Part shown: one piece after another, positions 6,083 through 20,138 of the stretch
Numbering within the stretch: the first letter of the stretch is position 1
Layout of the letters: each line of letters opens with the position of its first letter
Source of the DNA: Acidobacteriota bacterium
GTDB lineage: Bacteria > Acidobacteriota > Terriglobia > Terriglobales > Acidobacteriaceae
Reading direction: 5' to 3'
Assembly (NCBI GenBank): GCA_021846985.1
Contig: JAJZVX010000012.1
Coordinates: 1 to 64,000 of the forward strand
DNA: 64,000 nt
Made by a program: the position numbers and the translations under genes
Notes under the pieces: generated by a model
What the model was told of the DNA's origin: nothing
Databases searched by the model: none
The model's input: only the letters and a program-made list of their open reading frames with translations

Positions 6083-6113
6083 CAACCCGCGCACCCGCTA
6101 AGGATTCCCGGCC

Positions 6114-10971: not shown

Positions 10972-11162
10972 GAGCGCGAGGCTCCTCGGGTGACGCGGTT
11001 GAATTGGTATGCCGATAAAGATGCCGGCTTCAAGATAGCAGATGGCGGCGGATGGAAGCGCGCGGTGCGTGCGCTCTTTTGCGGCATCGGTCCGCGGCGA
11101 TGGGGCGGCGCACGCCCAGGCGGCGCATGCGGCATCCGGTAGAATAGAGGCAGGAGTTGAAG

Positions 11163-11435
11163 ATGGCACATACGGTGTTTTGCGTTCGTTATAAGAAGGA
11201 GATGGAAGGGCTGGACGAGCCCCCTTTCGACTCGGCGTTTGGGGAGAAGATTTACAAGAACGTCTCCAAGCAGGCCTGGGCGGAGTGGGCGGACCGGCAA
11301 AAGATGCTGCTGAACGAGTACCGGCTGCAACCCTGGACGCCGCAGGCGCAGCAGTTTCTGGTGGAACAGATGGACATGTACTTTTTTGGCGAGGGCCTGG
11401 GACTGCCGGCCGAGTACGTGCCGCCCGCGCAGTAA
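11163..11435 (+). CDS. yggX: YggX-type Fe(2+)-trafficking / oxidative damage protection protein
   Basis: 90 residues, the usual length of the family. The start MAHTVFCVRYKKEMEGLDEPP carries the conserved cysteine, and YKNVSKQAWAEWADRQKMLLNEYRL is the recognisable YggX core. The family protects iron-sulfur proteins from oxidative damage and is thought to handle labile ferrous iron, although the mechanism is debated. The ATG at 11163 has AGGAG upstream; a TTG two codons earlier is the alternative. The gene stands alone just ahead of tRNA-Pro. A GCCGGCCC/GGGCCGGC hairpin (11519-11539) lies between them. Confidence 0.92.
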   Translation: MAHTVFCVRYKKEMEGLDEPPFDSAFGEKIYKNVSKQAWAEWADRQKMLLNEYRLQPWTPQAQQFLVEQMDMYFFGEGLGLPAEYVPPAQ

Positions 11436-11549: not shown

Positions 11550-11626
11550 CGGGACGTGGCTCAGCCTGGTAGAGCACTCGCTTGGGGTGCGAGGGGTCGG
11601 CAGTTCAAATCTGCCCGTCCCGACCA
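11550..11626 (+). tRNA. tRNA-Pro (anticodon GGG)
   Basis: A full cloverleaf can be drawn. The acceptor CGGGACG pairs with CGTCCCG, the D arm is GCTCAGCCTGGTAGAGC, and the anticodon stem CTCGC/GCGAG encloses TTGGGGT (anticodon GGG, reads CCC). The T arm is GGCAGTTCAAATCTGCC, and CCA is encoded at 11624-11626. Its 3' half is the attachment site of the island that follows, and insertion preserves the gene because the left att copy completes it. Confidence 0.95.
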
Positions 11627-11629
11627 TTA
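11579..11629. repeat. Left attachment site (attL) in tRNA-Pro
   Basis: 51 bp identical to 19335-19385. It begins inside the anticodon stem and ends three bases past the encoded CCA. The flanking bases differ between the copies (T versus C before, G versus T after), which defines the repeat exactly. Confidence 0.92.
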
Positions 11630-11673
11630 GAATCAAACACTTATAAGGTATTCTTCCAGCGTCAATCTAAAAT

Positions 11674-11695
11674 TGTGGGGGAAATTGTGGGGACC
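11674..11695. repeat. 22-bp direct repeat near the left island end
   Basis: A 22-bp sequence beginning TGTGGGGGAAATTG and ending GGGGACC recurs in the same orientation at 19185-19206. The two copies lie 45 bp inside the left att and 129 bp inside the right att, and each contains two TTGTGGGG-like units. This suits arm-type integrase or excisionase binding sites. Confidence 0.6.
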
Positions 11696-11732
11696 ACGAT
11701 GCAATTTTCTGCTTTTGGCCCCCACACCGCTC

Positions 11733-12827
11733 CTACTGCGCGGGCCGTCCGGCCATCGCATCCAACGCTTCCACCGCCCGCCGCTTTGCCTCCAGCCGAA
11801 CATGGCTGTAATGCTCCAGCATCTTGCGGCTGAGGTGACCGCTGATTGCCTGAATGGTGGCGTCCGGGGTCTGGGTCTGCGCCAGCGCCGAAATGAAGTG
11901 GTGGCGTAGATCGTGGATGCGGCATTCCACCCCGGCTTGTTTCTTTGCCGTGGTCCATGCACGCTTCCACGCTCCGAGCGGTTTGCGGGGGTCTACATCG
12001 TAAGCCGTCATAACCCCCTGCTCTGGTGCGCCCGCTCCTTTGAACATGAGTTTCTCTGTGGGGAAAACGTAGTCTTGCGGCTGCGCATCGGGCCAGTGGC
12101 TCCGCCATTCTCTGAATGCACCAAGCGCCGCCTGATTTAACGGGATGATGCGCCCTTCGCCGCCCGCTGTTTTTGCTTTGCCAACCTGGAACTCCGCTTT
12201 CAGAAAGTCCACCTGGGACCACCGTGCGCGGCGCAGTTCGGCATTCCTGAGACCCGTATTGCAATAGACCACAACCGCTGTGTACAAGCTGGGCTGCGGA
12301 CTCTTGCGGCAAGCATCGAACAGCCGGACCTCTTCATCCGGCGTCAGTGCCCTGCCGACGTCTCGCCGTTCCGGGAGCATCCGCACGTCTTGGGAAATTG
12401 TCCCCCAAAGCCGCGCGGCCTTCATCATCAGGCGGAGAGTGGAAACCTCCATGTTAATCGTGCGGTTGGATGCGCCTTCCTTCTGACGCATCCCCTGATA
12501 CTTGCCGATGTGCTGAGGGGTAATGTCGGCAAGCAACATGGAACCAAAGTAGACGGAGAGATGCTTCAAGTTGAATTCCTGAATTGCGATATTCGACTTG
12601 CTCCACCGCGCCCGGCTCGCGGCCATCCACTCACGCGCTGCAATCGGAAACAGCATTGGGCGGCGGGCGGCGCGAACCCCGTTTGCAGACTCTTCCAACT
12701 CCCGCCGCCGCTGGCGCTCCGCCTTGACCGCGAGTGTCTTTGATTCGCTGCCCGTAGATTCACGAATGCGCTGCCCGCGAAATACGAACTCATACCACCA
12801 GACACCACCGCGCCTGTAGATGGCCAT
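11733..12827 (-). CDS. Tyrosine site-specific recombinase (island integrase)
   Basis: 364 residues. The N-terminal arm-binding domain begins with RRGGVWWYEFVFRGQRIRES; a core-binding SAM-like domain spans about 60-150. The catalytic domain shows the first arginine in NTGLRNAELRRARW, HDLRHHF for the H-x-x-R box, GHLSRKMLEHYSH with the second histidine, and a tyrosine in the same segment as nucleophile. It should integrate and excise the island at the tRNA-Pro site next to its own 3' end, the usual arrangement. It is transcribed toward the att site. It is 27 bases from the gene upstream and possibly co-transcribed with it. Confidence 0.93.
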   Translation of the reverse strand: MAIYRRGGVWWYEFVFRGQRIRESTGSESKTLAVKAERQRRRELEESANGVRAARRPMLFPIAAREWMAASRARWSKSNIAIQEFNLKHLSVYFGSMLLADITPQHIGKYQGMRQKEGASNRTINMEVSTLRLMMKAARLWGTISQDVRMLPERRDVGRALTPDEEVRLFDACRKSPQPSLYTAVVVYCNTGLRNAELRRARWSQVDFLKAEFQVGKAKTAGGEGRIIPLNQAALGAFREWRSHWPDAQPQDYVFPTEKLMFKGAGAPEQGVMTAYDVDPRKPLGAWKRAWTTAKKQAGVECRIHDLRHHFISALAQTQTPDATIQAISGHLSRKMLEHYSHVRLEAKRRAVEALDAMAGRPAQ

Positions 12828-12854
12828 TCTCGCCTTCCTCTCTGCGGCTATTTC

Positions 12855-13919
12855 CTACCTCTGTTTCGCCTTGTCCGTGGGGACCTCTCGGAGCTTCTCT
12901 TCTGCCTTGGCTTTCATCTTCCGCTCTCGTTCATTTCGCCGGGACTTCCTTGAGTGCGCTGCATTCTTGCATTGCCGCTGGTTGCAGAATTTCTTGCTCT
13001 TTTGCCTGCCAACCGGGAAGAGCCTATTGCAAAACTGGCAAGTCCGATACTCCACACCGTTGCTGTAGTCGGCGTAAATCGCCGCTGCAATGGCGTGGAG
13101 CGTAGTCCAGGGATGAATCACAAACGCGGGCCGCAAGGATTTGCGCGGGAGTAGAAATTCGATCATGGCTCCGCCCTTTCGGAGCAACGGCAAAACTGCA
13201 TCTGCATCTTCCTTGCGCTTTGGAATCCACTCAATTGAGCAAAACTTGCCGGGAGGCCCCTGAAACCACGTCCATAGTTTGCGGCGCTCTTTCTCCTGGT
13301 GTTGTTGACCTTCCAGGATCATGGGAACGATTTCAGGATGCCGAAGTTTTTCGCGCTCCATCCATTCTGCTTCTTTGCTTGAAACAGGCTCCCTATTGAC
13401 ATCGAAAAATGAGCTTGCGTAGTCGCCAGTCAATGCTTTCAGGACTTCCCAATGCTCGCCGCTCGTATCGCCGCGCTGCATCGCAGAGGCGAGTGGCTCA
13501 TGTTCCAGAACCAGACGGGTGAAGCGCTGCCATCGTTGAAACTCACTCCATGTAATCGTGTCATCGAGTGGCGAAAATATTCCAGTAGTGGTCAGGAAGT
13601 CGTAGGCTCCGCTCCAATCCTTGACATTCAGGAATTCATCCCGCACTGCGTGAGCATTCAGGGGTTTTTCTTCCCATATTTCATCGGGTTCATGGCCAGC
13701 CACAGTACGCGTGATTCTGAAGCAATGCTCTTCGCCGCGTTTGTAATGCTCCACCCGCCCGACAATTGCCATGTAGGGAACAATCACCGGCATCGCTGAA
13801 ATTGCCCGCTCGGGAGGTAAATTCCGCATGGCATCCATTGCCGCGCGCAAGCGATCTAGCTCGCTGAAGCGCTGCGGGGTTAGCTCCGGGTAGTCCTCGT
13901 TTTCCACAGTACCCCTCAT
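12855..13919 (-). CDS. Island protein with a C-terminal CGNR-like zinc-finger motif
   Basis: 354 residues. The N-terminal two-thirds shows no family I can name with confidence. Near the C-terminus the segment RTCQFCNRLFPVGRQKSKKF is followed by CNQRQCKNAAHSRKSRR. It has two paired-cysteine sites and a basic helix, resembling the zinc-finger of CGNR-type regulators, so DNA or RNA binding is likely. The last 30 residues are highly charged (RNERERKMKAKAEEK). It lies upstream of the integrase on the same strand and is divergent from the excisionase-like gene, so it could help decide between integration and excision; that is inference. Confidence 0.65.
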   Translation of the reverse strand: MRGTVENEDYPELTPQRFSELDRLRAAMDAMRNLPPERAISAMPVIVPYMAIVGRVEHYKRGEEHCFRITRTVAGHEPDEIWEEKPLNAHAVRDEFLNVKDWSGAYDFLTTTGIFSPLDDTITWSEFQRWQRFTRLVLEHEPLASAMQRGDTSGEHWEVLKALTGDYASSFFDVNREPVSSKEAEWMEREKLRHPEIVPMILEGQQHQEKERRKLWTWFQGPPGKFCSIEWIPKRKEDADAVLPLLRKGGAMIEFLLPRKSLRPAFVIHPWTTLHAIAAAIYADYSNGVEYRTCQFCNRLFPVGRQKSKKFCNQRQCKNAAHSRKSRRNERERKMKAKAEEKLREVPTDKAKQR

Positions 13920-13984
13920 GTACCACTTTTCAGCGTTCGCGTATCCCTCTACGTTAAATTACGGTAGCACAAGGAGTGGAGAGG

Positions 13985-14173
13985 ATGCCAGTAGCAAAGC
14001 TGCTCAAGGTACCGGAGGCGGCGGCAATGCTCGCCTTGTCCCAAAAAACAGTGTGGCAGTGGATTGGCGAGCGCCGCATCGGAGTGGTGAGGCTGGGCCG
14101 CGCTGTCCGGGTTCCGCTCTCGGAAATTGAACGGCTCATGGAAGAAGGGACAACCCCGGCTTTGCGCGGATGA
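13985..14173 (+). CDS. Small helix-turn-helix protein of the excisionase type
   Basis: 62 residues with the MerR-like excisionase helix-turn-helix: VPEAAAMLALSQKTVWQWIGERRIG, then the wing RLGRAVRVPLSEIERLM. In integrative elements a protein of this size, encoded divergently from the integrase side, usually steers excision by bending att DNA or acts as a repressor. Purine-rich GGAG lies upstream; a GTG three codons earlier is possible. Its TGA overlaps the ATG of the next gene (ATGA), so both are translated together. Confidence 0.8.
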   Translation: MPVAKLLKVPEAAAMLALSQKTVWQWIGERRIGVVRLGRAVRVPLSEIERLMEEGTTPALRG

Positions 14174-14778
14174 ATGGATCAGCCCGAAATCGACATCATA
14201 CGGTAACTTGGAAGGATCGAAAGTCGCCGTTTTTCCAGATTGGGAGCGAAATAGCTCATGTATTCCTACCGCTCATGGGGTCAGATTGCTTCACGATTTA
14301 CGTCTATCTGGCGAGCCGCTGCTTCAAAAACCCTGAATTGGAACACACCACTCTGGAGTTGAAAGACGCAACCCGCATCGGAGCCTCTACGGTGTGCCGT
14401 TCGCTCGAAATCCTGGAAAGTTTGGGATTGATTCGACTCATTCGACGTGGAGGCTCCCAAAAGAGCAGATGCACGCTCCTTGATTCTGAGAAGGCCGCCG
14501 AAGACTTAGGGGCGGTTTATCAGCAAAAGACGCTTTCCTGGTCATTGCCAAACGAAGCAAAACAAGACATCAAGGCAAAAATTGAGGAAATCCGGCAGAG
14601 ACAGCAAGGAAAGAGGGACCAGAAGGCCTCAATCTTCTGTGGAAATCAGCCATTGCGCGTTTCTCAGAGAAACGCTGGCGTCTCTCCAGAGAAACGCCAG
14701 CGTGCCACCAGAGAAACGCAAACGGGAACCCATCTAAATACAAGAAGAAGAAAGAATTGTAGAAACCCCTATCTGTAG
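14170..14778 (+). CDS. Winged-helix protein, possibly frameshifted
   Basis: 202 residues. The N-terminal part (KFxx-like region through VFLPLMGSDCFTIYVYLASR) and the segment KDATRIGASTVCRSLEILESLGLIRLIRRGG form a MarR/replication-initiator-like winged helix. A charged linker rich in Lys, Gln and Arg follows. It overlaps the preceding stop by 4 bases. The protein ends in a basic run just where the next frame opens, and the two frames overlap between 14737 and 14778, so the original gene may have read into the next frame. It may regulate or start replication of the excised element; this is not established. Confidence 0.65.
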   Translation: MNGSARNRHHTVTWKDRKSPFFQIGSEIAHVFLPLMGSDCFTIYVYLASRCFKNPELEHTTLELKDATRIGASTVCRSLEILESLGLIRLIRRGGSQKSRCTLLDSEKAAEDLGAVYQQKTLSWSLPNEAKQDIKAKIEEIRQRQQGKRDQKASIFCGNQPLRVSQRNAGVSPEKRQRATRETQTGTHLNTRRRKNCRNPYL

Positions 14779-15154
14779 TCTTTCCCCAAACGGCAGTGGC
14801 AAAGCCGAGAAAGACAAAGACTCACCTGATGAAGATGAACCGGATAGGCTGCTGAAGTGGGCCAGAGATGAATTCACCGGCGTGATGAACGACTTGGGAG
14901 ACGGACTGTTCGATACCAGCCGACCTCTGGTGCCGCACCTCGCCAACGGCGCTGCCGATTGGCTAAATTTCGGGATGAACAGTCTTGCCGTGGAGCGGAC
15001 GGCGCGGCGCGGCAAAACGCTGGAGCTGGTGCTCTCCGCGTCCGACCCGGCGGCAGTGCGACTCGGCTTAAACAAGTACCGCAAGCGATGGGAGGCGAGT
15101 CTGCGCAAATGGTACGGCTGCGAGGTGAGCTGGGAGATTCAACAGACCACCTGA
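14737..15154 (+). CDS. Island ORF, possible continuation of the winged-helix gene
   Basis: The frame opens after a TAA at 14734-14736 and continues to the TGA at 15152. It reads about 138 codons, containing KAEKDKDSPDEDEPDRLLKW and, later, LNKYRKRWEASLRKWYGCEV. No ATG occurs before 14885; GTG at 14882 is the first ordinary start and has no good ribosome site, yet the sequence upstream of it looks protein-like and acidic. A single-base shift would fuse it to the preceding gene. I cannot name a family; the tail resembles nothing I recognise. Confidence 0.45.
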
Positions 15155-15479
15155 ACCTGGTGGAGGGCGGATCGAAATGTACGAAGCCGGGCGCGGGGGG
15201 TAGGGTGGCAAAAATACGCGAACCGAAGCAATTCCTAGACCGTGCCCCAAGAACGCTTATACATCCACAAAATTGGGGCTTTTTCTGGATTTCACATCCA
15301 ATCGGGCGGCTTCTGAATCAGCCGCATAGTCGTGCGCAATGGTTGCGGAATGGCGCTCTGTCGCGTCTGCGAGTGGCTGAGAGGCCGCGCGCATCCCTCC
15401 GCCCCCCGGGCGGCATCCCGCATTGCACTTCCCAAGCCCGGCCAGCCCTGCGAAAATTGGACTTCGCCCAAGGGACTTC
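15155..15479. other. 325-bp gap before the restriction-modification gene
   Basis: No coding sequence I can support. It presumably holds the promoter of the MmeI-like gene. Minus-strand frames here are shadows. I see no clear inverted repeat or binding motif. Confidence 0.4.
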
Positions 15480-18320
15480 ATGCCGCTCTCGCTTGCCGAG
15501 TTTGTCGAACGCTGGAAGGCCGTCACGCTCAACGAGCGCGCCGCCGCGCAATCCCATTTCATCGACCTCTGCGAAGTCCTGAGCCAGCCCCATCCCGCCG
15601 CCGCCGACCACACTGGAGAGAGCTTCACTTTTGAAAAGGCCGTCTCCAAGCTCCACGGCGGCAAAGGTTTTGCCGATGTGTGGAAGCGCGGATTCTTCGC
15701 CTGGGAGTACAAGGGCAAGCATAAAGACCTCGCAGCGGCCTACCACCAGCTCGCTGACTACCGGGACGACCTGGAAAACCCGCCGCTCCTGGTGGTCTGC
15801 GACATGGACGTTTTCGAGGTCCATACCAACTTCACCGGCACGCAAACGCGCGTCTACAGGTTCACCCTCTCCAATCTGCTCGCCAGCGCGCCCACGCCAA
15901 ACTGCGCCTTGCCGCCGCTGGAAGTGTTGCGCGCCCTGTTCTCCGATCCTGAAGAGCTGCGCCCGGAGACCGCTGCCCGGCGCGTCACCGAACAGGCCGC
16001 CGCCGAATTCGCCAAGCTCGCAACCAGCCTCCGCGACCGGGGAGTGAACTCCGAACGCGCCGCGCACTTTTTGATGCGCCTGCTCTTCTGCCTCTTTGCC
16101 GATAGCATCGGCCTCTTGCCAGACAGGCTCTTTCGCCAGATGCTCCAACTGTCCCGGGATCGCGCCGCCAGTTTCACGCGCAAGCTCCGCCAGCTTTTCG
16201 CTGCCATGTCCACCAGCGGGAACAGCTTTGGCGTCCATGACATTCACTGGTTCAATGGCGGCCTGTTTGCCGACGATGAGGTATTCGAGCTTTCGGCGTG
16301 GGACCTGGCGACGCTGCGCGCCGCCGCCGGGCTCGATTGGTCCTCAGTCGAACCGGCCATCTTCGGAACCCTCTTCGAGCGCAGCCTTGACCCCGGCAAG
16401 CGCTCCCAACTCGGGGCGCACTACACCAGCAAAGAAGACATCCTGCTTATCGTGGAACCCGTTGTAATGGCCCCCCTGGAGCGCCGCTGGCAGCAGATGA
16501 AGGCAGAGGCCCTGGAAATCGCAGCGAAGGCTCAGGAGGCCAAAGGCGGGGCATACTTGAAGCTCCGGGCGCAGCTTCAAGACAAGCTCTTTGCCTGGGT
16601 TGAGGAACTGTCCAAGGTGCGCATTCTTGACCCCGCCTGCGGGAGCGGCAATTTTCTTTACGTAGCCTTGCGCCGGATGTTGGACCTCTGGAAAGAGGCA
16701 TACGTCTTTGCCGCCGCTCACGGCCTGCCCACGTTTCTTCCCTTCCAAGTCACCCCCGCGCAGCTTTACGGCCTGGAAACCAACGTCTACGCGCATGAGC
16801 TGGCCTCTGTGGTGGTCTGGATTGGTTATCTGCAATGGCTCAATGACAACGGCATCGGATGGCCGACAGAGCCGATTCTGCGCAAGCTCGATAACATCCA
16901 ACACCGGGACGCGATTCTCACCCATGATGCGGACGGCAGGCCGGTAGAACCCGTATGGCCGGAGGCGGACTTCATCATCGGCAATCCGCCGTTTCTGGGA
17001 GGCAAGCGCCTCCGCACAGAGCTTGGAGATTCCTACGTGGAAGAAATTTTCCGTGTGTACGCGAGCCGCGTTCCGCCAGAGGCCGACTTGGTGACGTACT
17101 GGTTTGAAAAGGCGCGGGCGCAAATTCAGGCCGGGAAGGCAGGCCGCGCCGGACTCCTTGCAACGCAAGGCATACGCGGCGGCGCAAACCGTGCAGTCCT
17201 GGAGCGGATTCTCGAAAGCGGCGGTATCTTCATGGCCTGGAGTGACCGCGATTGGATCTTGGACGGGGCAAATGTTCACGTTTCAATTGTGGGCTTCGAC
17301 GGTGGTGCGCAAACAGAACGGAGCCTTGATGGAACGTCAGTTGCGAGTATTCATGCAAACCTGACAAGTGCAGCAAATACCACGACAGCGCGGTTACTCT
17401 CAGAGAATGCCGGGCTTTGCTTCATGGGTACGACGAAGATTGGGGCATTCGATATTGCGTCGGATGTGGCTCAAAAGATGCTGGCCGCGCCGATGAACCC
17501 GAATGGGCTCCCTAACTCTCTCGTGGTGAAGCCATGGGTCAACGCGATGGACCTCACGCGCAGACCTCGGGGCATGTTCGTCATTGACTTCGGCACAACA
17601 ATGCCAGAGGCGGAAGCCGCTCTCTTTGAATTGCCGTTTGAGTATCTCAGGCAAAACGTCTACGCCAAACGCGCCGAAAACAACCGGGAGGGCTATCGAA
17701 CGAAATGGTGGCTCCATGGTGAGCCAAGGCCCGATATGCGGGAGGCGCTGTCTGCATTGACCCGCTTTATAGCCACACCGCGCGTCTCGAAGCATCGGCT
17801 TTTTTGTTGGCTGTCTTCGGATACCCTTGCTGACTCTGCAACCTTCGTCTTCGCCCGTGAGGACGATTACTTTTTGGGTGTTCTGCATTCGCGCTTGCAC
17901 GAGCTATGGGCGCGTGCCCAAGGGACGCAACTGCGCGAGGTGGAAAGCGGCTTTCGCTACACTCCCACCTCAACCTTTGAAACCTTCCCTTTTCCTTGGC
18001 CGCCGGGCCATGAGCCGCAAGACTCGCCGCTGGTGGGAGCCATCGCAGAGGCCGCGCGCGAACTGGTAGCGAAGCGGGACGCATGGCTCAATCCACCGAA
18101 CGCCAGCCCGGAGGAATTGAAGAAGCGCACGCTCACGAATCTCTACAATGCCCGCCCCGCGTGGCTGGCAGACGCCCACCGCAAATTGGATGAAGCCGTC
18201 TTCGCCGCCTACGGCTGGCCCTCCACCCTCGCCGATGCGGAGATTCTGGAACGGCTGCTCACCCTCAACCACCAGCGCGCCGCCGGAGGCCGACAGGAAA
18301 GCAAGGGGCAGCCGGGTTGA
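15480..18320 (+). CDS. MmeI-like type IIL/IIG restriction-modification enzyme
   Basis: 946 residues combining nuclease, methyltransferase and specificity regions. The N-terminal segment GFADVWKRGFFAWEYKGK has aspartate, nine residues, then EYK, the D-x9-E-x-K catalytic motif of MmeI-type nucleases. The adenine methyltransferase motifs follow: DPACGSGNF (motif I, binds AdoMet) and NPPF (motif IV, catalytic) in FIIGNPPFLGGKRL. The last 250 residues should hold the target-recognition domain (SGFRYTPTSTFETFPFPW is typical of the family end). One protein would both methylate and cut DNA, so no separate methylase is needed. The ATG at 15480 matches the family start (MPLSLAEFVERWK). The recognition site cannot be read from sequence by eye. 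Confidence 0.92.
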   Translation: MPLSLAEFVERWKAVTLNERAAAQSHFIDLCEVLSQPHPAAADHTGESFTFEKAVSKLHGGKGFADVWKRGFFAWEYKGKHKDLAAAYHQLADYRDDLENPPLLVVCDMDVFEVHTNFTGTQTRVYRFTLSNLLASAPTPNCALPPLEVLRALFSDPEELRPETAARRVTEQAAAEFAKLATSLRDRGVNSERAAHFLMRLLFCLFADSIGLLPDRLFRQMLQLSRDRAASFTRKLRQLFAAMSTSGNSFGVHDIHWFNGGLFADDEVFELSAWDLATLRAAAGLDWSSVEPAIFGTLFERSLDPGKRSQLGAHYTSKEDILLIVEPVVMAPLERRWQQMKAEALEIAAKAQEAKGGAYLKLRAQLQDKLFAWVEELSKVRILDPACGSGNFLYVALRRMLDLWKEAYVFAAAHGLPTFLPFQVTPAQLYGLETNVYAHELASVVVWIGYLQWLNDNGIGWPTEPILRKLDNIQHRDAILTHDADGRPVEPVWPEADFIIGNPPFLGGKRLRTELGDSYVEEIFRVYASRVPPEADLVTYWFEKARAQIQAGKAGRAGLLATQGIRGGANRAVLERILESGGIFMAWSDRDWILDGANVHVSIVGFDGGAQTERSLDGTSVASIHANLTSAANTTTARLLSENAGLCFMGTTKIGAFDIASDVAQKMLAAPMNPNGLPNSLVVKPWVNAMDLTRRPRGMFVIDFGTTMPEAEAALFELPFEYLRQNVYAKRAENNREGYRTKWWLHGEPRPDMREALSALTRFIATPRVSKHRLFCWLSSDTLADSATFVFAREDDYFLGVLHSRLHELWARAQGTQLREVESGFRYTPTSTFETFPFPWPPGHEPQDSPLVGAIAEAARELVAKRDAWLNPPNASPEELKKRTLTNLYNARPAWLADAHRKLDEAVFAAYGWPSTLADAEILERLLTLNHQRAAGGRQESKGQPG

Positions 18321-18421
18321 TTGTGTAATGGGAGGAAGCCTTTCCCGGCTCTACTCCCAGAGAGCGGCGTCCGCCGCGCCTACCCTGTGACAAACAAAAT
18401 CTGCGCCGACAATCGAGGCGG

Positions 18422-18709
18422 CTAGGCGGCGTTCTCCAGCCGTGCAATGCGCGGGCGCTTCTTGTGCGCGGCTTGCCACATGTCATAGCTGGCCTGCATG
18501 TCGTACCAGAACGAGGGATGCGTGCCCATCGCCTCGGAAAGACGCAGGGACATATCCGCGCTGATGCCAGCCGCGCCGTTGAGAATGCGCGAGAGAATGA
18601 CCCGCGAAACACGCAAATGCTTTGCCAGCGCGGTCACGCTCATTTCCCCCATGTACTCCCGCAGCACTTCGCCGGGACGGGGAGGGTTGTGCATTTGGCT
18701 GATGGTCAT
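18422..18709 (-). CDS. higA: HigA-family antitoxin
   Basis: 95 residues. PPRPGEVLREYMGEMSVTAL and LAKHLRVSRVILSRILNG form the HigA/XRE-type helix-turn-helix; the tail (FWYDMQASYDMWQA) is typical of HigA. It neutralises the HigB RNase by binding it and represses the pair's promoter. It follows the toxin gene with only four bases between stop and ATG, and GGAGG overlaps the toxin end. Toxin-first order is the hallmark of higBA. In this island it probably acts as an addiction module that stabilises the element. Confidence 0.92.
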   Translation of the reverse strand: MTISQMHNPPRPGEVLREYMGEMSVTALAKHLRVSRVILSRILNGAAGISADMSLRLSEAMGTHPSFWYDMQASYDMWQAAHKKRPRIARLENAA

Positions 18710-18713
18710 TCCA

Positions 18714-18998
18714 TTACCTCCCGTGATAGTCCTGATAATCCACCAGAATAGTGTCTTCGCCTTCAAAGCGAAACGTGACTCGCCAGTTCCCGTTGACCTT
18801 GATGGACCAATGCCCCGCAAGATCGCCTTTGAGCGGATGCAGATCCCATCCGGGCCGGGACAGGTCGGCGGCAGACTTCGCCAAATCGAGGGCGAACAGT
18901 TGCAGTGAGAGCTTCTTTGCATGTACCGGCTGAATTCCCGCCTTGCTGCCCGTTCTGAAGAATCTTTCAAGCCCGGCGTGCTGGAAGCTCTTAATCAC
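18714..18998 (-). CDS. higB: HigB-family toxin (RelE/ParE fold)
   Basis: 94 residues from a GTG start at 18998 (VIKSFQHAGLERFF); longer frames read into noncoding sequence. The family pattern is present: FRTGSKAGIQP, KKLSLQLFALD, LHPLKGDLAGHWSIKVNGNW and RVTFRFEGEDTILVDYQDYH. HigB toxins are ribosome-dependent mRNA endonucleases. The segment GHWSIKVNGNWRVTF holds the conserved basic and aromatic residues. The gene precedes higA by 4 bases. The promoter should lie in 18999-19334; no clear palindrome is seen there. Confidence 0.9.
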   Translation of the reverse strand: MIKSFQHAGLERFFRTGSKAGIQPVHAKKLSLQLFALDLAKSAADLSRPGWDLHPLKGDLAGHWSIKVNGNWRVTFRFEGEDTILVDYQDYHGR

Positions 18999-19334
18999 GC
19001 TCTCACTGTAAACAACATATTTACAGTTGTCAAAGGATTCTTGAGAAAAGGCGCGTCCCGTTGCGCGAACCGAGTCTGCATCCATGCGCTCCCGCCAGCG
19101 TCGATGGGATTTCCTGCTCTGCCCTATAGCGCCGCCTCAGCGCCCATCCGGGTGGATTTCAGAGCGGAAATCGGCGCGAAAAACTGTGGGGGAAATTGTG
19201 GGGACCCTGTGCGAAAAATGGCGGTAAACGGCGGTAATTTGCGCCCGCTTTGGACTGGCAAAAATCGAAGATAAATGCCTATTATCCAGCAAGTTATGGG
19301 AAGCCACGGTAAAGGGCAGAAAAAACCGGAAGGC
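18999..19334. other. Right-end noncoding segment of the island
   Basis: No supported gene. Contains the right copy of the 22-bp repeat (19185-19206), a GGCGGTAAAC/GGCGGTAA doublet (about 19219-19240), and presumably the higBA promoter. Confidence 0.5.
19185..19206. repeat. 22-bp direct repeat near the right island end
   Basis: Exact copy, same orientation, of 11674-11695. See the left copy for details. Confidence 0.6.
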
Positions 19335-19385
19335 CGCTTGGGGTGCGAGGGGTCGGCAGTTCAAATCTGCCCGTCCCGACCATTA
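19335..19385. repeat. Right attachment site (attR)
   Basis: 51 bp identical to the tRNA-Pro 3' half at 11579-11629, including CCA. The sequence before it (GGAAGGC) does not continue the tRNA, so this is not a second gene. Confidence 0.92.
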
Positions 19386-19427: not shown

Positions 19428-20138
19428 GTGGTGTGGTGGAGGCATGCGACCTTTACGCATGGCCGACGCCGCAGCCATGATTCTGGGGCTGCAAGCTCTG
19501 CCTGCCGGATGTGGGTTGCGCCGGAAACCCGCTGTCCGGTGCTGCTGCATCATCCCACGCGCAAGAGCGTAGACTACTTCGGCGCGGTCCGTCTGCGCGA
19601 CGGCAAGTTCCTCTTTCGCCGGGAAACGGAGCGATTCAATGCCGTCACCTGCTGGCAGTTCCTCAAAGAACTGCGCGCCCGCAGCGCCCACGCCGGGCGA
19701 AAAGTAGTGGTGATTGTCGACAACGCCAAGTACCACCACGCACGCATGCATCGCGACTGGCGGCAGGCGCAGGCCGACAACTTTGTCCTGGATTTCCTGC
19801 CGCCCTACAGTCCGGATCTCAATCCTATTGAACGGGTATGGAAACTGGCCCGCCGACTCGCCGTGCACAACCGCTACTTCCCGCATCTCGACGATGTCGT
19901 GCTGGCCGTGGAAACGCAATTCGCCCAGTGGAAAACATGCAACGAATATTACGCAAATTATGCGCAATTACTTAAGACGCTGAGTATAATTCAGTATTTT
20001 GCCTATCCGTTCCTCTTGTCCTCGTTTGCAGGTGGGGCGAGCGGAGCGGTATCCGCCGTGAGGTGGGAGGGGGGCTGGAGAGAGGGCTGTTTTTCAGGAC
20101 CGATTGTGAAGGCCGTGATTTGCTTGGCGCCGGTTTAG
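19428..20138 (+). pseudogene. IS630-family transposase remnant
   Basis: The frame encodes the C-terminal half of an IS630/Tc1-like DDE transposase. It has VVIVDNAKYHHARMH, with the second catalytic aspartate, and LPPYSPDLNPIERVWKLAR, with the third acidic residue. The N-terminal DNA-binding domain and the segment with the first catalytic aspartate are absent; the frame's first 35 residues do not resemble the family. Homology ends near 19985 and the frame then runs into unrelated sequence. No clear terminal inverted repeats are visible. It is inactive and lies 43 bases outside attR, marking the tRNA-Pro locus as an insertion hot spot. Confidence 0.85.

Follow-up and report, generated by a model that had tools for sequence, protein, structure and literature searches.

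What kind of element is inserted at the tRNA-Pro(GGG) gene of the Acidobacteriota bacterium contig JAJZVX010000012.1 (assembly GCA_021846985.1), and how would it move? The question concerns positions 11550-19385 of the 64,000-nt stretch of DNA that was analyzed (the window). A preliminary description had called this island a self-contained defence-and-addiction cassette and left its mode of movement open. We consider it fairly probable that the island is a satellite-like integrative element, which would excise, replicate from its own origin and need a helper to transfer.

The mobile island is ~7.8 kb long and is bounded by 51-bp repeats in tRNA-Pro(GGG). The tRNA gene, located by ARAGORN (11550-11626, + strand) and complete at the left end, is the integration target. 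The attL core repeat (11579-11629) recurs exactly as the attR core repeat (19335-19385), as the preliminary description had stated. This core comprises the final 48 nt of the tRNA gene and 3 nt beyond, and thus comes from the tRNA 3' half; in our judgment, a 51-bp identity within 14 kb far exceeds chance. Inside both island ends lie 27-bp arm-type repeats in the same orientation (11669-11695 on the left, with two TGTGGGG units 12 bp apart, and 19180-19206 on the right). The two copies matched at 96% in the repeat comparison, and a 24-nt core of the right one is unchanged in the sibling element L035 (contig G012:C170). These repeats are probably arm sites that the integrase would bind. With a tyrosine integrase beside the tRNA gene and the duplicated tRNA 3' half at the far end, the locus has the organization of a tRNA-integrated island.

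The integrase (int; 364 aa, 11733-12827, - strand) adjoins tRNA-Pro(GGG), matches PF00589 (E=1.5e-25) and phrog_1, and contains the motifs TGLR, HDLRH, GH and HY, which we take to be catalytic. Directly upstream of int is a gene for a 354-aa protein with a C-terminal four-cysteine motif (znf; 12855-13919, - strand). The four cysteines are invariant in an alignment of 5 sequences. No family match to this protein was found in Pfam, NCBIfam or PADLOC, its PHROG match was weak and HNH-type, and its structure model was poor, with a mean predicted local distance difference test score (pLDDT) of 48.9; its relative in the element L154 barely reaches zf-CGNR (24.3 vs 24 bits). The zinc-finger protein is probably a partner or regulator of the integration module. 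The next gene encodes a 65-aa excisionase-type helix-turn-helix (HTH) protein (xis; 13976-14173, + strand), matching HTH_17 and TIGR01764 (39.3 bits vs cut-off 28.8). Transcription of int and znf diverges from that of xis and the following genes, rep and MmeI. Among phage records, 246 had an integrase match, all at <60% identity (27-28% for the 8 of the 246 that were listed), and znf and rep had no relatives among viral contigs. Related integrase, four-cysteine and excisionase genes were also seen in L137, at tRNA-Val, and in L044, beside a helicase gene that is presumably DUF3987-like; these layouts indicate that the integration module is common to several element types.

The gene overlapping xis by 4 bp encodes the N-terminal part of a replication initiator (rep; 202 aa, 14170-14778, + strand), which matches phrog_270 (replication initiation) weakly (E=7e-4). 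Single-frame relatives of this initiator match phrog_391, annotated 'replication initiation O-like' (L154, 4e-16; L036, 2e-11; L135, 1e-8). A repeat search located an iteron block inside rep (14657-14719), made up of three GAGAAACGC and one inverted copy at 22-bp spacing. Compared with L035, 5 of the 63 sites of this block are changed, against 179 of 387 in the preceding coding sequence; third positions are changed in 2/21 and 73/129 cases, respectively (p=7.6e-5). None of 200 codon shuffles of the island rep scored as high in the lag-22 repeat. Within rep, the strongest periodicity is at 22 bp in the island and in L035, at 46 bp in L036 and L154, and at 23 bp in L135. In all five genes, the periodic repeats lie between the HTH part and the C-terminal part, and the repeat sequences of the siblings differ from those of the island. 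Period strength was above all 200 codon shuffles in four of the five elements, L036 being the exception (11/200 reach it). None of these periods is divisible by three, so they are not accounted for by a repeat in the peptide. The argument for an origin rests on this lag test of rep, which was made after a weaker 9-mer count. A 40-bp stretch with 70% AT (14735-14774) is a candidate unwinding element; equally or more AT-rich were 10 of the 12,792 40-mers sampled across the window.

A further initiator part (14882-15154, + strand) lies in a different frame, open from 14738, and corresponds by profile to the C-terminal domain of the relatives' initiators. Its changes show some third-position excess (26, 20 and 41 of 90). 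The structure model of this part (mean pLDDT 69.6) gave DnaA domain I as its top two matches in VIA, with Z 8.0 (2.2 Å over 75 residues) and Z 7.0 (2.1 Å over 71 residues), and the next row had Z 6.4; no match was obtained in Foldseek at E <=0.001 or to Pfam DnaA_N. Because DnaA domain I contacts the helicase in known systems, we propose that this C-terminal part may recruit a helicase. The phage lambda O gene resembles the island rep in having mid-gene iterons followed by an AT-rich stretch; the island differs in that its C-terminal part is DnaA-domain-I-like by model and lies in another frame.

The cargo begins with a single-chain restriction-modification enzyme of the MmeI type (Type IIL; 946 aa, 15480-18320, + strand). 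The Pfam domains MmeI_N, hel, MTase and TRD are above their cut-offs, MmeI_C being below (24.8 vs 27 bits), and the motifs D-x9-ExK (at 66), DPACGSGNF (at 384) and NPPF (at 502) are present. Nuclease, helical spacer, methyltransferase and target recognition domain (TRD) are thus found in one chain with catalytic motifs, in the domain order of MmeI itself. The MmeI catalytic D-x9-E-x-K, given in a section of PMC4833311 as V69-D70...E80-M81-K82, is likewise shared; the recognition region differs from that of MmeI. In 50-aa windows over aa 1-579, identity of the island enzyme was 0.72-0.98 to G012, 0.43-0.82 to G010 and 0.45-0.82 to G030, and over aa ~605-850 it was 0.44-0.62, 0.62-0.94 and 0.62-0.74, respectively. 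Because the body is nearest to G012 but aa ~605-850 are nearer to G010 or G030, the recognition region (about aa 600-850) has been exchanged between relatives. Monophyly of the element-borne MmeI enzymes was considered and not retained: path distances from the island enzyme were 0.16 (L035), 0.26 (L154), 0.33 (L135) and 0.35 for L197, which is without the core, and the fork is unresolved. MmeI was also rejected as a marker of such elements, the rep profile lying beside only 4 of 43 MmeI loci (42 and the island; several on short contigs).

The second cargo unit is a HigBA pair on the - strand. HigA (95 aa, 18422-18709) matches TIGR02607 (90.5 bits vs cut-off 47.7) and HTH_3; HigB (94 aa, 18714-18998, with a GTG start of our choice) matches PF05015 (79.9 bits vs 27). 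The HigB-like toxin gene lies upstream of the HigA gene and both are intact by profile, so that families and gene order are those of the HigBA type II toxin-antitoxin, with no notable difference. A second HigA homologue, 61% identical, occurs elsewhere in the same genome (G000:C15, L067 4972-5247). The gene inventory of the preliminary description thus stood for the integrase, excisionase, restriction-modification enzyme and HigBA pair; it had missed the zinc-finger gene, rep with its iterons, the DnaA-domain-I-like part and the arm repeats.

These parts suggest how the element would work. The integrase and excisionase, probably with the zinc-finger protein, would recombine the 51-bp core in tRNA-Pro(GGG) via the arm sites at either end. 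Once excised, the circle would replicate from the iterons inside its own lambda-O-like initiator gene, and the DnaA-domain-I-like part would bring in DnaB, the helicase of the host. Since no recognizable transfer machinery is encoded, spread of the element would depend on a helper, the simplest candidate being a temperate phage of the kind seen at this tRNA. Both cargo units, the MmeI-type enzyme and HigBA, would serve to hold on to the host, through restriction of competing DNA and a penalty for loss.

The preliminary description had suggested comparing the same tRNA-Pro site in relatives. In 79 genomes of the genus, one per species and including that of the island (G000), a left arm motif was found close behind tRNA-Pro in seven (G000, G012, G080, G014, G089, G013 and G025, of which G012 and G080 probably count once), and in none with a reversed-pattern control. 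The other 72 are a mixture of empty sites, other occupants and unassembled sites; in the stretches read from G004, G005, G011 and G079, only a single repeat copy is present. Occupancy of the site is therefore variable, being neither empty nor identical in all relatives, an outcome that favors the preliminary description on this point. The sibling on G012:C170 has the same layout at the same tRNA over 8.2 kb (int 90%, xis 91%, rep 49%, MmeI 77%); where the island has HigBA, this sibling has an open frame of 180 aa that matches nothing in Pfam. The G014 element shares int (86%), znf (64%) and xis (81%), and has a rep and other cargo, namely a metallophosphatase, a cyclopropane synthase family protein and a dynamin-like GTPase; no MmeI match was found on its 9.2-kb contig. 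In G025, a stub at the same tRNA retains only the last 44 integrase codons. At fourfold sites, G000-G080 identity is 0.62 for int (taken from G012:C170) vs 0.49 for gyrB (p=0.005), and G000-G014 identity is 0.38 vs 0.54 (p=0.001). The int gene is more diverged than gyrB in five of six pairs and less only in G000-G080; because this usually faster gene is there the more alike, simple vertical descent is argued against.

Other arrangements were seen at this tRNA. In G013 (L158 1-16667), two tRNA-Pro att copies enclose ~16.5 kb that carry the arm motif and, by eye, stress-protein- and P-type-ATPase-like genes; the 20 kb read there gave no integrase match. Behind the tRNA in G062 (L055), three more 32-nt copies of the tRNA-Pro repeat (its positions 19-50) lie at 6094, 6254 and 6414, at an exact spacing of 160 nt, and similar single copies of this piece occur in L042, L057, L058 and L059.

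The same core also occurs at other tRNA genes. At tRNA-Cys in G003, int (~26% identical), xis, rep and MmeI (76%, cut by the contig end) follow in order, without a znf match. At tRNA-Met in G295 (L154), the element consists of int (26.6%), znf, xis, rep and an MmeI gene. G389, from another genus, shares 10,556 bp with the G295 element at 99.98%; the identity stops in the tRNA-Met anticodon loop, and G389 has only the 5' half of this tRNA. Either the DNA was transferred recently, or the identity is an artefact of assembly or binning. Directly behind the G295 element, a second segment of 3.2 kb lies between tRNA-Met 3' halves (L154 10550-10597 and 13764-13811), and gave no integrase match to the queries used. 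Five distinct initiator elements can be counted (the island, G012/G080, G003, G295/G389 and G014), and an MmeI-type enzyme directly follows the initiator in four of them, at three tRNA types.

A possible partner was found in a viral collection, where the single relative of the integrase (78%) is on the contig L129, which ends in a complete tRNA-Pro(GGG) adjoining int. PHROGs on L129 include a terminase small subunit, a tape measure protein, DnaB and an O-like protein, and a 250-aa four-cysteine gene without zinc-finger Pfam match lies upstream of int. This prophage is a candidate helper type for the island. When the 8 proteins of the island itself were compared with Pfam, NCBIfam, PADLOC and PHROGs, no structural, packaging or conjugation family was matched at E <=0.01, in line with the earlier statement that phage structural and conjugation genes are missing. 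Because no transfer genes were recognized and the prophage shares the att site and the integrase type, the mobility of the island appears to lean towards helper use.

Several observations weigh against the satellite-like reading. The absence of a packaging match in the four libraries is one, and outside int no significant DNA is shared between the island and L129, nor was a significant cos-like match found between them. The origin argument has its own exceptions: the integrase of L135, one of the 11 genes used as controls, reached 15.0 at lag 24, near the rep genes of L135 (15.8) and L035 (16.0), and the L036 rep scored 10.6, within the control-gene range. The cruder 9-mer count, with 200 shuffles per rep gene, was mostly negative, the observed value being reached by 8 shuffles in the island, 199 in L035, 12 in L036, 22 in L154 and 200 in L135. 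The MmeI association carries a search bias, G003 having come to light by way of its MmeI; among the elements found by other searches, island excluded (G012, G014 and G295/G389), two of three have MmeI. Flanks included, G012:C170 has 99.7% identity to G080 contigs, whereas gyrB identity between the two genomes is 76%; the contig is therefore probably misbinned and counts once with G080. No locus with the island's own right flank was present among the fetched loci, which may be because an IS630-type transposase fragment adjoins attR (19428-20138; 111.7 vs cut-off 100 bits, covering 159-297 of the 299 profile positions). On the left, the Fe(2+) trafficking protein gene outside the island (11157-11435, + strand; PF04362) served as flanking marker; of the 24 fetched loci in which tRNA-Pro matched in full, 20 have this gene, while the sequence after the tRNA differs. 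Finally, the initiator is split over two frames in the island and, with another offset, in G012:C170; it is one frame in L036, L135 and L154. The two frames may reflect a lesion or an error of assembly, or the initiator may exist as two genes. A programmed frameshift as one shared mechanism was rejected, the offset being +1 in the island and -1 (or +2) in L035. As znf is also frame-broken in G012:C170 and MmeI in G295, decay is common in these elements.

Such decay is the core of the alternative that survives best, in which the island is an immobile remnant, fixed through the split initiator and retained for its restriction enzyme. The broken genes, the stubs at the same tRNA in relatives such as G025 and the island GC (0.51-0.65 per 500 bp, a range overlapping the flanks) all agree with it. 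However, int, xis, MmeI, HigA and HigB are open with their motifs or domains, the C-terminal initiator part retains some third-position excess, both att cores are identical, and int and xis could suffice for excision. We therefore hold a remnant to be unlikely, if still worth weighing. On another reading, the island is a plasmid-like element that has integrated and that moves by conjugation or transformation and not by phage. This would account for an own initiator with iterons and for the lack of packaging genes, and a znf relative in G065 lies, by eye, beside ParA/ParB-like genes. Against this, the intact initiators are phage O-like by profile, no relaxase family was matched in Pfam, NCBIfam or PHROGs, and the N-terminal part of rep had no match among 72,556 plasmid records; we hold this reading to be quite improbable. 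A plain defence-and-addiction cassette with incidental mobility, as first described, is hardly credible: the MmeI-type enzyme and HigBA are present, but an integration and replication module with origin-like iterons, which extends to about 15154, takes up nearly half of the island and is common to relatives without a HigBA match, the nearest sibling among them, and G014 has no MmeI match.

A satellite-like element can be compared with known systems. Satellites are typically 6-18 kb long, according to a part of PMC11389934. Like phage-inducible chromosomal islands (PICIs), the island is small and has a tyrosine integrase, an excisionase, its own initiator with iterons and an AT-rich region, accessory genes and no complete set of particle genes. 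Passages of PMC6092414 state that PICI attachment sites are never used by temperate prophages and that the PICI origin is immediately 3' of the rep gene. The island departs from both statements, because the prophage contig L129 is at the same tRNA-Pro, and its iterons lie inside rep. It differs further in that int and znf diverge from xis-rep-MmeI and that no PICI packaging gene was seen. P4-like satellites, described in part of PMC9122126 as defence hotspots carrying restriction-modification and toxin-antitoxin cargo, have the same type of cargo at a variable place; they differ in their proteins, as no match to the P4 alpha primase (primase-helicase), psu or sid was found in the 8 island proteins (Pfam, PHROGs, E <=0.01). 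Satellites with restriction and toxin-antitoxin genes (PMC9122126) and PICIs with iteron origins (PMC6092414) are thus known already from these sections of the literature.

What may be new is the combination. It is possible, and we propose it tentatively, that these elements form an undescribed family of Acidobacteriota phage satellites, with an initiator in which an O-like DNA-binding part is fused to a DnaA-domain-I-like helicase recruiter, an origin of 22-23-bp iterons in its gene, a near-core MmeI-type enzyme with exchangeable recognition, and an integrase module swapped between tRNAs (Pro, Cys, Met). A literature search limited to open-licence papers found no phage satellites or PICIs of Acidobacteria or Acidobacteriota. 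For this phylum, the island and its siblings are concrete satellite candidates. Their initiator has an unusual layout, the site is shared with a prophage that is a candidate of the helper type, and they provide the case of a restriction enzyme whose recognition region has been exchanged between relatives while it is carried on a mobile element.

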